Assembly: GCA_946480595.1 (NCBI GenBank)
Contig: CAMLKC010000012.1
Location: forward strand, 1-23,118
DNA: 23,118 nt
DNA from: an uncultured Candidatus Saccharibacteria bacterium
GTDB taxonomy: Bacteria > Patescibacteria > Saccharimonadia > Saccharimonadales > CAMLKC01
Direction of reading: 5' to 3'
A model generated the notes under the pieces. That model worked only from the letters and a program-made list of their open reading frames with translations, did no database searches and had not been told where the DNA came from. Below, piece after piece: positions 16,364-23,049 of the stretch; positions within the stretch are counted from its first letter, which is position 1, and each line of letters begins with the position of its first letter. The translations under genes were made by a program, and so were the position numbers.

Positions 16364-19279
16364 ATGAAGCGCTATAACCCGACCGAAATCGAACAGAAAT
16401 GGCAAGACAAGTGGGAAAAGGACGGTACATACAAAGTAGACCTCCTCGACCGCTCGCGCCCTAAGTACTTCGGTTTTAGCATGCTTCCGGGCATCACGGG
16501 TGCCGGTATCCATATTGGCCATGGACGCACGTACCAGTTTAGTGATATTAAAGTGCGCGCTAAGCGTCAGCAAGGATACAACGCGTATCATCCTATTGGC
16601 TGGGATTCTTTTGGTCTGCCGGTTGAAAATTACGCCATTAAGGTTGGCAAAAAACCGCGTGAGGCTCATGACGACGCTAAGGTGAACTTCAAGCGTCAGC
16701 TAAAACGACTGGGCTACAGTTATGACTGGAGCAAAGAAATCAGTACTGCCGATCCGTCGTACTACAAGTGGACGCAGTGGATCTTCAACCAGCTGTATAA
16801 GAACGACCTTGCTTACCAAAAAGAAAGCCCGCAGTGGTGGTGCGAGACCGACCAGACCGTACTTGCCAACGAGCAGGTAGAAGGTGGCAAATGTTGGCGC
16901 TGTGGCAACCCGGTCGTCAAAAAGAACCTTAAGCAGTGGTTTTTCAAGATTACCGAATACGCCGATGAAATGCTTGAGGCAACCGATGAGCTGAACTGGA
17001 CCGAGTCGGTCAAGGTGATGCAAAAAAACTGGATCGGCCGTTCGCAGGGCGCCGAGGTTGAGTTTAAGCTTGATGGCCGCGACGATATTATTACTGTATT
17101 TACCACTCGTCCCGACACGTTGTTTGGAGCAACGGTTCTGGTTGTCGCACCTGAACACGAACTTGCGTCTAAGCTTGCCACCGGCGAGACGGCGGCTGCT
17201 GTCGAGGCGTACCGCGAAGAAGCCGCACGAAAGTCAGAGATCGAGCGCATGAACGATACCCGTGAAAAAACGGGCGTATTTACTGGCGCTTACGCCATCA
17301 ACCCAGTCAATGGCGAGAAAATCCCTATCTGGCTGGCCGACTACGTACTGGCTGGCTATGGTACTGGTGCGATTATGGCGGTCCCAGCGCACGATGACCG
17401 TGACTTTGCCTTTGCTGACAAATTTGGCATACCCATCAAAGATGTTATCGCCCAGGATTATGGCGAAGAATTGCCGGACCCGAAAGAAATTGAGGGCGTG
17501 GTTGTTATTGGCTACGACCCTAAGATCAAACGATTTATGGCCCTTAGAAATAAGCGTAACAATCGAGGTTGGCTTGTAGCCGGCGGCCATGAAGAGGGCG
17601 AAACGTTTGAACAGACAGCTTACCGAGAACTGCGCGAAGAAGCTGGGTTCGTTGACGTAGAAGCTATGATTCCGCTTGGTGCACCGGTGTATTCGTACTA
17701 CTACAACAGCAACAAGGATAGCAACCGCCGTTCCAAAGGGTATAACTTTTTAGCGATTATTGACTCGACCATGCAGGGTGAGCAGGCCCTTGAATCCCAT
17801 GAAGATTATGAAGTGTACTGGAGCGAAGGCGAAGCGCTTAAAGCTAGTACCAATCCTGAAGGCGGCGCTGACCACTGGCAAGAAGGTATTGAGCGCGCCA
17901 TTCAAGCCGCCAAAGCCTACGAAAAGGGCGAAAAATACCGCGGCCAACTGTTTACTGGCGAGGGTATCCTTATTAATTCTGGCGCGTTCGACGGCATGCG
18001 TACCGAACAGGCCCGTGAAGAAATCGTTGACTGGCTAGAGCAGCAAGGCGTTGGCCGCAGCAAAGTGACGTATAAAATGCGCGATTGGCTTATCAGCCGT
18101 CAGCGCTATTGGGGCGCGCCGATTCCTATTGTCCACTGTGCAAAGGACGGCGCCGTGGCGGTGCCTGACGACCAGCTGCCGGTTATTCTGCCGGACGTCG
18201 AAAACTACAAGCCAACTGGCGGTGCTACCTCGGTACTTGCCGGCGTGACCGATTGGGTTAATACGACCTGTCCTACTTGCGGGGGCCCGGCAACACGTGA
18301 AACCGACACGATGGACGGTTATGCCTGCAGCAGCTGGTATTTCCTACGTTATCTTGACCCATTCAACGACGAAAAAGCCTGGGATCCTGAAGTCGAGTCT
18401 TTCTGGGGTCCGGTCGACTTTTATAACGGTGCCGACCACGCCGTGGCACACCTTTTGTACGCTCGCTTCTGGACGCGCTTTTTCTACAAGCAAGGTCTCG
18501 TGGCAACGCCCGAACCATTCAAGCGCATGATGTATAACGCCTACATCATGGCACCTGACGGCCTGAAAATGAGCAAGTCAAAGGGCAACGTCATCGACCC
18601 GCTTGAAATAATGGACAGCGGTTACGGCGCGGACAGCCTCCGGGTATACGAAATGTTTATCGCGCCGTATGACATTGAGGCGCCATGGGATGTTCGTGGT
18701 GTTCCTGGCACCTACCGGTTCTTGAACCGAGTATGGAACCTAGCGCAGGAATACATCGAAGCGAGCGAAGGCACGATCGGCCAATCTCAAATCTCTGAGC
18801 TGTTGGCGATGGCGCACAAAACAGTGAAAAAAGTCACCGAAGACATCGAGAACGAAAAGTTCAACACTGCCGTTTCAAGCATGATGGAAGCAGTCAACGC
18901 ATACTATAAGCTCAAAGACGTTCATCCTATCGTGAAGTCTGCCGAATGGAAATTTGCCATCGAGAGTCTGCTGCAGGTACTCTCGCCGTTCGCGCCACAC
19001 CTTACCGAAGAGCTCTGGTCGCAAATGGGCTACGAAACGACTATCCATGTTGATACGTGGCCGAAATGGGACAACAGCTACCTCGTGCAAGACGAAGTGA
19101 CGGTTGTGGTACAGGTAAACGGTAAGCTCCGTGCCAAGCTGACAGTGGCCAAAGACAGTAATGACGAAGACGTCAAGATGCGGGCGCTGCAAGAAGAGAA
19201 TGTCCAAAAGTATCTTGAGGGCAAGGAGCCTAAAAAAGTTATTTATGTTCCGGGGCGACTCGTCAACATCGTTCTCTAA
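16364..19279 (+). CDS. leuS: Leucyl-tRNA synthetase with inserted Nudix domain
   Basis: This 971-residue bacterial-type LeuRS charges tRNA-Leu. The HIGH motif is at 50-53 and KMSKS at 735-739. A zinc-ribbon-like cluster has C160, C177 and C180. The CP1 editing domain has FTTRPDTLFGAT (246-257) and GTGAIMAVPAHDDRDFAFA (333-351), including the editing Asp345. The catalytic core resumes at LISRQRYWGAPIP (576-588), and the C-terminal region is complete. E. coli LeuRS has about 860 residues. The excess lies between the end of CP1 (about 370) and TGEGILINSGAFDG (531-544), where a full Nudix hydrolase domain sits. The reading frame is unbroken and composition is like the neighbours. It is probably monocistronic and leaderless. 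Confidence 0.97.
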   Translation: MKRYNPTEIEQKWQDKWEKDGTYKVDLLDRSRPKYFGFSMLPGITGAGIHIGHGRTYQFSDIKVRAKRQQGYNAYHPIGWDSFGLPVENYAIKVGKKPREAHDDAKVNFKRQLKRLGYSYDWSKEISTADPSYYKWTQWIFNQLYKNDLAYQKESPQWWCETDQTVLANEQVEGGKCWRCGNPVVKKNLKQWFFKITEYADEMLEATDELNWTESVKVMQKNWIGRSQGAEVEFKLDGRDDIITVFTTRPDTLFGATVLVVAPEHELASKLATGETAAAVEAYREEAARKSEIERMNDTREKTGVFTGAYAINPVNGEKIPIWLADYVLAGYGTGAIMAVPAHDDRDFAFADKFGIPIKDVIAQDYGEELPDPKEIEGVVVIGYDPKIKRFMALRNKRNNRGWLVAGGHEEGETFEQTAYRELREEAGFVDVEAMIPLGAPVYSYYYNSNKDSNRRSKGYNFLAIIDSTMQGEQALESHEDYEVYWSEGEALKASTNPEGGADHWQEGIERAIQAAKAYEKGEKYRGQLFTGEGILINSGAFDGMRTEQAREEIVDWLEQQGVGRSKVTYKMRDWLISRQRYWGAPIPIVHCAKDGAVAVPDDQLPVILPDVENYKPTGGATSVLAGVTDWVNTTCPTCGGPATRETDTMDGYACSSWYFLRYLDPFNDEKAWDPEVESFWGPVDFYNGADHAVAHLLYARFWTRFFYKQGLVATPEPFKRMMYNAYIMAPDGLKMSKSKGNVIDPLEIMDSGYGADSLRVYEMFIAPYDIEAPWDVRGVPGTYRFLNRVWNLAQEYIEASEGTIGQSQISELLAMAHKTVKKVTEDIENEKFNTAVSSMMEAVNAYYKLKDVHPIVKSAEWKFAIESLLQVLSPFAPHLTEELWSQMGYETTIHVDTWPKWDNSYLVQDEVTVVVQVNGKLRAKLTVAKDSNDEDVKMRALQEENVQKYLEGKEPKKVIYVPGRLVNIVL
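17486..17947 (+). other. Nudix hydrolase domain inside LeuRS (residues about 375-528)
   Basis: The insert starts IEGVVVIGYDPKIKRFMALR and contains an intact Nudix box (G-x5-E-x7-REUxEExGU) at residues 407-429, nt 17582-17650, with G407, E413, R421, E422, E425, E426 and G428. A Nudix-like second half follows (SKGYNFLAIIDS, DYEVYWSEGEAL). A polar helix-rich tail (HWQEGIERAIQAAKAYEKGE) leads back to the synthetase. All metal-binding residues of the box are kept, so the domain is likely active. Confidence 0.93.
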
Positions 19280-19609: not shown

Positions 19610-20071
19610 ATGGCCTCAAACCGTCACCTAGGACGCATCGTTGTATTACAAAGCCTTTACGAGTACGAGTTTCGTACCGGGTCAGGTGATACTACTGTAG
19701 ATATCGATGAGATCCTGGGACGGAACCTGGAGCGGTACGAATCGGCAATTGAGGATAAAACCTTTGTCGCCGACCTTGTCAAAGGTGTGATTGCGGATCA
19801 GGCTGATCTTGATAAAGAAATCCAACCGATTGCCCCCGACTGGCCGATTGAACAGATCGCCCGGGTTGACCGGACAATTCTTCGTATCGGGCTTTACGAG
19901 CTGCTCAAGCTTTCAAACATTGTCCCACCGAAAGTGGCGATCAACGAAGCCGTAGAGCTCGCCAAGGCCTTTGGTTCTGATAACTCAAGCAAGTTTATTA
20001 ACGGGGTGCTCGGCACCGCGTACCGTACGCTTGTTGAAGGGAAATCAGATAGTGCAGAATCCAAAGTTTGA
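19610..20071 (+). CDS. nusB: Transcription antitermination factor NusB
   Basis: This 153-residue protein is an all-helical NusB fold: [17 protein letters not shown] at the start, [20 protein letters not shown], then the family hallmark [17 protein letters not shown] and [19 protein letters not shown], ending [14 protein letters not shown]. NusB binds boxA RNA with S10 (NusE) to prevent early termination in rRNA operons. It is a typical neighbour of translation genes. Its last 20 nt overlap the start of the Nudix gene, suggesting translational coupling. Confidence 0.95.
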
Positions 20072-20546
20072 GCGATTCAAGAAATATTTTAAAAAACCTG
20101 GCGGATCGATCCAGGAGATTGTCCGAGAGCCGACCGCTGGCGGCATTGTGTTTCGCCGCAACAAAGATAACGAAGTAGAAATACTGCTTATCCAGGACGC
20201 CAAGGACCGCTGGACGATCCCCAAAGGCCACATCGAGGAAGGCGAGACCGCGCAGCAGACTGCTAAGCGTGAAATCGGCGAAGAAGCCGGTCTCCATAGC
20301 ACCGATGTGCTGGGCTGGCTCGGAAAAATCCATTTCCGCTACCGCCGTGTTGACCGCCTAGTCCTCATGACGACACAGATTTATCTTGTCCGCGCCAAAG
20401 GTGACACTAATGCCATCAAAAAAGAAGAATGGATGAACGGTATTAAATGGTTCAGATTCCATGATGCGCTCGAGGTGATAGAATACGAAGATATCGGCAA
20501 GCTTATGCTGCTTGCCATGAAAAGAATCCGACAGGAGAACCTATAA
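20052..20546 (+). CDS. Nudix hydrolase
   Basis: The protein has 164 residues from a GTG at 20052, with AAGGGA about 10 nt upstream. An in-frame ATG at 19971 would overlap nusB by 100 nt and encodes an unlikely N-terminus. A basic N-terminal stretch ([14 protein letters not shown]) precedes the domain. The Nudix box [20 protein letters not shown] runs from residue 59 and has all required acidic residues. RWTIPKGH before it suggests a diadenosine-polyphosphate or NTP-type hydrolase, but the substrate is not determined. It overlaps nusB at its start and rnc at its stop (TAATG). The domain is not obviously close to the one inside LeuRS. Confidence 0.92.
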
Positions 20547-22764: not shown

Positions 22765-23049
22765 TCAGCCGAGGCCGAGCCGCTCGTGCCCTTCCGGGAG
22801 GTAAGGCGGTTCGTGCTCACCGTACTCGGTCAGGTAGACATCGACGAAGCCCAGAAGGGCGCCGCAGGCGATGTTGTAGCGGGTGGTGCCCACCGCGGCA
22901 CCTCGGACCAGTTCGATCTGGGCCGTGACGTGCTCGGCGGCTTCCTGCTGCTCCTGGGTGTCTCCCGGGATGCCCTGTGTGCGGGCAGCCAGGAAGGCGC
23001 GGAACGCCTGACTCGCGAGCAGGCTGTTCATTGTCTCTGGTGTGATCAT
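22765..23049 (-). CDS. GC-rich foreign-looking small protein, function unknown
   Basis: This 94-residue protein starts MITPETMNSLLASQAFRAFL and looks mainly helical (QEQQEAAEHVTAQIELVRGA), with a short tail rich in Pro, Gly and Glu. There is no membrane segment or known motif. AGGGG lies 7 nt before the ATG. Codons end mostly in G or C, unlike the neighbouring genes but like the gene at 12134-13189. It has its own AT-rich promoter and its own terminator. No function can be assigned. Confidence 0.65.
   Translation of the reverse strand: MITPETMNSLLASQAFRAFLAARTQGIPGDTQEQQEAAEHVTAQIELVRGAAVGTTRYNIACGALLGFVDVYLTEYGEHEPPYLPEGHERLGLG

Follow-up and report, generated by a model that had tools for sequence, protein, structure and literature searches.

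The leucyl-tRNA synthetase (LeuRS) encoded in a 23,118-nucleotide stretch of DNA from an uncultured Candidatus Saccharibacteria bacterium (contig CAMLKC010000012.1; this whole stretch is referred to as the window) contains a complete Nudix domain within its CP1 editing domain, and judging from sequence comparison the insert appears to behave as an exchangeable cassette, related genomes swapping or losing the inner enzyme or holding unrelated ones. We consider it probable, with moderate confidence, that the insert is an autonomous metal-dependent nucleotide pyrophosphohydrolase lodged in a permissive surface loop of LeuRS and exchanged by recombination. The computed support consists of a complete predicted fold, kept glutamates, a fixed insertion site, patchy presence, discordant histories of insert and core, and the presence of unrelated enzymes at this and other sites in relatives. 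The relevant features of the window, all on the forward strand, are as follows.

16364..19279, +: leuS, bacterial-type leucyl-tRNA synthetase of 971 amino acids (TIGR00396, 963.9 bits; matches to LeuRS structures in the PDB)
17024..17458, +: first part of the CP1 editing domain, residues about 221-365, with TTRPDTLFGAT and AVPAHDDRD (PF13603 at 221-368, profile positions 1-146 of 185)
17072..17092, +: site A, residues about 237-243, upstream of TTRPDT; empty in the window, occupied by ASCH, serine-hydrolase or Nudix domains in some relatives
17459..17953, +: site B, Nudix insert with linkers, residues about 366-530 (alignment boundaries; Pfam NUDIX; predicted model with fold match)
17582..17650, +: Nudix box, residues 407-429 (GGHEEGETFEQTAYRELREEAGF), with E422, E425 and E426 all kept in 101 of 104 inserts
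17699..17728, +: second family motif Y....K..NR, residues 446-455 (K451, N454 and R455 in 96, 76 and 73 of 104 inserts, respectively)
17819..17821, +: W486, near-invariant tryptophan of the insert family (103 of 104 inserts)
17954..18115, +: remainder of the editing domain and return to the catalytic core (GILINSGAFDG ... RQRYWG; second PF13603 stretch)
20052..20546, +: separate Nudix gene, Ap4A-hydrolase-like (NUDIX, 67.2 bits; best PDB match Ap4A hydrolase 3i7u, 5.4e-15)

The host protein scored far above the TIGR00396 cut-off of 548.4 bits, and the HIGH, KMSKS and editing motifs were all found in its translation, in agreement with the preliminary description, which had credited the enzyme with all of its own motifs. 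Residues H343, D344, R346 and D347 of the editing domain were invariant among 66 aligned LeuRS. The same description had placed the insert after the editing domain, a position that has to be corrected: PF13603 matched the window LeuRS in two stretches, whereas it matched the insert-free LeuRS of locus L006 in a single stretch (1-185 of 185), so that CP1 is split by the insert. Two further observations were made in the window. At 18530-18585, the counterpart of residues about 593-636 of Thermus thermophilus LeuRS (before KMSKS), which we take to be the leucine-specific domain, was unmatched; and a 94-amino-acid ORF at 22765-23049 on the reverse strand, possibly of foreign origin, lies in a patch of about 59-68% GC beside sequence of about 40-52% GC (200-base windows).

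That the insert is a complete Nudix domain, as first proposed, was borne out by the Pfam NUDIX match, by the complete fold of the predicted model, which could be matched to known structures, and by the Nudix box GX5EX7REUXEEXGU at residues 407-429 with strongly kept catalytic residues. The best structural matches of the predicted model were RppH-, Ap4A-hydrolase- and DHNTPase-like enzymes, with identities of at most 24% in the 50 structural alignments listed. The strict box pattern was present in 100 of 100 homologues, which had themselves been selected by similarity to the insert region. In an alignment of 104 Nudix-type inserts (L007, L014 and L194, which are not Nudix, were left out), the three metal-binding glutamates were among the most conserved positions, together with G407, W486, K451 and R421 (E422 = 104, E425 = 102, E426 = 103, G407 = 104, R421 = 95). 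Identity to the window insert fell to 18% among 40 inserts; since all three glutamates are kept in nearly all of these divergent domains, most inserts are probably active as enzymes. The window insert reached none of the NCBIfam cut-offs (for RppH, PRK00714.1-3, 23.9 bits against a cut-off of 118).

The preliminary description would have been refuted had no other genome carried the insert; this is clearly not so, as a search of LeuRS in related genomes returned it widely. When residues 365-540 were compared with 5.8 billion proteins, 100 matches were obtained, all of which carried LeuRS domains and NUDIX in a precomputed domain list. In the class to which the genome of L001 belongs, a continuous match spanning the insert was found in at least 72 of 392 genomes (hand count of the rows listed), and many of the other class genomes listed had insert-free LeuRS frames of about 770-860 amino acids. 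From a 379-genome sample of the phylum, 40 LeuRS loci outside the class sample were chosen because of the length of their frames or matches, and 32 of them had a Nudix-type insert at site B (30 recognized by sequence pattern, L173 and L193 by sequence plus alignment); among the remaining eight, L194 had a nucleotidyltransferase-like domain (best Pfam match PF10706, an adenylyltransferase family) and seven had nothing at site B. A Nudix insert was also present in LeuRS L018 from a bin labelled Nanoarchaeota; L018, L007 and L014 all come from bins labelled archaeal. A frame of 24995 amino acids in G692 of the phylum sample adjoins masked N.

The histories of insert and core often disagree. In 2556 pairwise comparisons from 72 rows, in which pairs share members and are not independent, the inserts were less than 45% identical in 13 of the 31 insert-bearing pairs whose cores were at least 80% identical, and 15 pairs with cores less than 65% identical nevertheless had inserts at least 60% identical. 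Examples from 26 hand-picked pairs include similar cores with unlike inserts (L109/L110, 97% core and 46% insert; L092/L101, 87% and 27%; L082/L002, 85% and 26%) and unlike cores with similar inserts (L137/L138, 48% core and 71% insert; L087/L099, 61% and 76%). In others, for instance the window and L085 (88% core, 94% insert), descent looks vertical. L089 and L155 agree at 332 of 345 and 358 of 376 core positions (about 96%), and only L089 carries the insert.

On a LeuRS tree of 109 hand-picked rows (the window, 87 of the 93 loci L080-L172 and 21 of the 79 loci L001-L079), the presence of a site-B insert required at least 17 changes, 14 of them forced by starred branches; as the rows were hand-picked, the counts are events within the chosen rows and give no rates, and L007 and L014, although not Nudix, were scored as site-B inserts. 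L146 and L163 (internal stop), L172 (two-part frame) and the duplicates L081, L083 and L084 were left out of this tree. Core and insert tree distances were uncorrelated (Spearman −0.02), as against 0.44 for the core and the nearby Nudix gene (53 loci). Because the insert tree has long branches, part of its discordance with the core may be tree error, and the claim of exchange rests on the identities, which are independent of the tree. Raised identity just downstream of the insert, as expected after recombination, was found in some exchanging pairs only (78-81% in L108/L140, L108/L144 and L087/L099 against a background mean of 49%, but 44% in L089/L138). The dN/dS of the insert was 0.005 and 0.007 in two close pairs and 0.125 to 0.53 in three others, with no sign of positive selection in these five computable pairs; dS was large in all pairs, and in the other 21 of the 26 it was saturated.

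Nudix is not the only occupant of these loops. At site A we found ASCH (L016, L140, L150, L164 and L208), a PF06821 serine hydrolase (L147, L199 and L206) or Nudix (L152 and L225, the latter confirmed as LeuRS); at site B, a serine hydrolase in L014 and Nudix with HAD in L204; and at a third site, a serine hydrolase in L201 and, by eye, a similar domain in L203. The site-A Nudix of L152 grouped with the site-B Nudix of L148 and L018 (100/94), so that one Nudix type occurs at two sites. In surveys of 14 genomes each, the frames of at least 900 amino acids with ASCH (seven) or PF06821 (seven) all had the place or the length of LeuRS, and in ten chosen genomes, which may be incomplete, the LeuRS copy was the only ASCH (five) or PF06821 (five) detected; since the surveyed genomes were hand-chosen and include known insert carriers, these counts say nothing on frequency. 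Among the matches listed for 14 chosen genomes, Nudix-bearing frames of at least 500 amino acids were LeuRS-sized except for a 564-amino-acid frame in G180.

Several single cases were also noted. Nudix matches per genome numbered at least 3 to 27 among those listed in 14 chosen class genomes of about 0.8-1.4 Mb. P0078 is a LeuRS of 1616 amino acids that combines three Nudix domains, each of another type, with a serine hydrolase and a weak match to ASCH. Tandem duplication as the source of such multiple copies was rejected, the copies within P0078, P0047 and P0053 falling in different clades. L213:1998-3113 (−) encodes a free-standing 371-amino-acid fusion of serine hydrolase and Nudix, a pairing also found in some LeuRS, and L217:333-2021 (+) a 562-amino-acid ORF that is Mur ligase-like (by eye) with a C-terminal Nudix domain.

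The inserts extend to isoleucyl-tRNA synthetase (IleRS). L224:1214-5647 (−) in G314 encodes an IleRS of 1478 amino acids in which NUDIX and a histidine phosphatase were matched and a nucleotidyltransferase-like stretch was recognized by eye; its Nudix domain shares 46% identity with LeuRS inserts (best E 6e-50), which rules out that the insert is confined to LeuRS. Most IleRS frames listed were about 950-1050 amino acids long, and four of the eight longer frames scanned carried a named insert: a NUDIX of another kind than the LeuRS inserts in L241 (confirmed as IleRS), an LMW phosphatase in L240, YunG in L244 and PF06821 in L239. Pfam at E 0.001 named no insert in L242, L243, L231 or L234, of which L231 and L234 are truncated at the start of the locus. 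The LeuRS site-A insert of L151 and the IleRS insert of L243 have in common a domain that Pfam does not name (E 1.6e-12), with a weaker match to the site-B insert of L007 (1.5e-5).

Free-standing relatives of the insert are few in the class, making up 2 of 41 matches with a single query. This query, the free-standing P0110, matched 38 LeuRS-sized frames (938-1103 amino acids), two free-standing genes (G256 and G308) and the IleRS of G314 in the 392 class genomes at E 1e-10; the window insert alone as query gave no free relatives at 1e-3. A profile of 40 inserts found 35 proteins, P0101-P0135, after which the score dropped sharply. Eight of them had LeuRS domains in the precomputed list, P0123 and P0130 look like a reduced editing segment, and 20 of the 22 free-standing ones read had a methionine start. 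The preliminary description had proposed a tree of the domain with free Nudix proteins; with the doubtful members P0134 and P0135 left out, free-standing relatives nested inside the insert family at four places, so that capture or escape occurred more than once. P0123 (277 amino acids, 73 member sequences in its cluster) resembles a LeuRS editing segment that has shrunk around a Nudix domain (NUDIX 53.6 bits; PF13603 18.6 bits, below the cut-off of 25), and P0122 had no match in phage records.

According to the explanation that we favour, an autonomous Nudix enzyme in a permissive loop of the editing domain would make LeuRS a bifunctional protein. The insert would be catalytically active on a soluble nucleoside polyphosphate (NDP-X, a dinucleoside polyphosphate or a damaged NTP), independently of leucine charging, with LeuRS as its always-expressed carrier. 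The conserved leuS flanks may permit exchange of the cassette by homologous recombination, which would be why it stays mostly inside LeuRS; natural competence is known in Saccharibacteria. Against an autonomous cassette speak the P0110 matches, 38 of 41 being LeuRS-sized and one IleRS, by which the subfamily is far from a random genomic Nudix sample, and the altered boxes of some inserts. More tentatively, and with somewhat less than even confidence, we suggest that in Patescibacteria the loops of the LeuRS and IleRS editing domains might be general docking sites for a circulating set of small enzymes, as might those of bacterial-type LeuRS from some bins with an archaeal label. The set would comprise Nudix domains of many types as well as ASCH, RBBP9-like serine hydrolase, HAD, nucleotidyltransferase-like, histidine phosphatase, LMW phosphatase and YunG cassettes, which would move between sites, between both synthetases and between lineages, their diversity being kept by selection, for instance for protecting charging or for fast enzyme acquisition in very small genomes.

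The preliminary description had suggested that the domain may hydrolyse Ap4A or a misactivated adenylate product in place, or may act as a sensor between charging and nucleotide stress. A role in Ap4A turnover or a coupling to charging is possible; the specific proposal that Ap4A or another adenylate by-product of LeuRS is broken down by the Nudix domain, or that the domain adjusts charging by sensing nucleotide stress, seems to us unlikely. Within this class the P0110 matches are almost confined to synthetases, which may point to a function linked to these enzymes and is the best argument for one. The proposal also draws on the insertion site within the editing domain and on a fold close to those of Ap4A hydrolases and RppH, one solved complex of which holds Ap4A; synthetases are described as a main source of Ap4A in passages of PMC10148737. 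In sequence, however, the window insert only weakly resembles Ap4A hydrolases (1f3y, E 0.075 as a single sequence; 8e-9 with the insert profile, one among many Nudix subfamilies matched). L155 lacks the domain despite its core being so like that of L089, relatives have unrelated enzymes at the same sites, and a Nudix domain of this family occurs in an IleRS. Moreover, the gene at 20052-20546 is a better Ap4A-hydrolase candidate by sequence than the window insert. It lies two small genes downstream of leuS (leuS - small ORF - nusB - nudix - rnc), and its relatives neighbour leuS whether or not the locus carries the insert. With these results, a tie of the domain to leucylation, editing or Ap4A made by LeuRS is so far unsupported. 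The insert is not a copy of this neighbouring gene, as 72 inserts and 80 such genes were split by a 100% branch.

A role in local detoxification or immunity, in which the inserts would shield LeuRS and IleRS from nucleotide-like inhibitors or effectors and their diversity would reflect an arms race, strikes us as improbable. Diversity and exchange at fixed sites, the prevalence of hydrolases, phosphatases and transferase-like domains among the named inserts, and their occurrence in two related editing synthetases are in its favour, but no positive selection showed in the five computable pairs, and the idea is purely inferential. Slightly less probable still is a structural or binding role, the domain acting as a scaffold for nucleotide or tRNA with no catalysis: L136, L141 and L193 each lack one catalytic glutamate, and the box arginine is absent in nine of 104 inserts, including the L089/L090/L137/L138 type, which also lacks the glycine, but the retention of all three glutamates in the other 101 argues against it. 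An assembly chimera or gene-calling error is rejected, since an unbroken frame crosses the insert in 69 of the 70 class loci fetched (of the 72 with a match across it) and the insert of L085 is 94% identical to that of the window. Nothing was found in its favour; the one fetched class locus with a stop in the LeuRS frame is L146.

No report of a Nudix domain in LeuRS was found among open-licence papers, and a report outside these may exist; a review of synthetases (PMC7373986) does not use the term nudix in its main text. A housekeeping enzyme that is essential and evolves slowly appears to be host to exchangeable second enzymes at a few fixed loops. If this is true, very small genomes would acquire genes by an unusual route, and two questions become open to direct tests: which substrates the embedded hydrolases have, and who benefits from them, the host synthetase or only the cell.

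Compared with known systems, the insert shares its complete fold and box with Nudix enzymes of the MutT, RppH, Ap4A hydrolase and DHNTPase types (2azw, 7sp3, 3i7u and 2o1c), which were its best structural matches and among its best profile matches, but it sits inside LeuRS and has the family motif K..NR and W486. Unlike in the bacterial LeuRS of T. thermophilus (1h3n) and E. coli (4aq7), CP1 of the window enzyme is split by a second enzyme. Synthetases with appended or inserted domains, for example those of the NCBIfam model ileS_w_GNAT (NF040702), likewise have an extra enzyme domain in a class I synthetase, whereas here a few fixed loops take many unrelated folds, with exchange of inserts across lineages. 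Inteins and other in-frame intragenic elements are patchy and horizontally exchanged in essential genes. The insert shares with inteins its in-frame position in an essential gene, its patchiness and its horizontal exchange; however, Pfam at E 0.05 gave NUDIX only and no splicing or homing domain for the window insert, which, as far as its sequence tells, stays in the protein.
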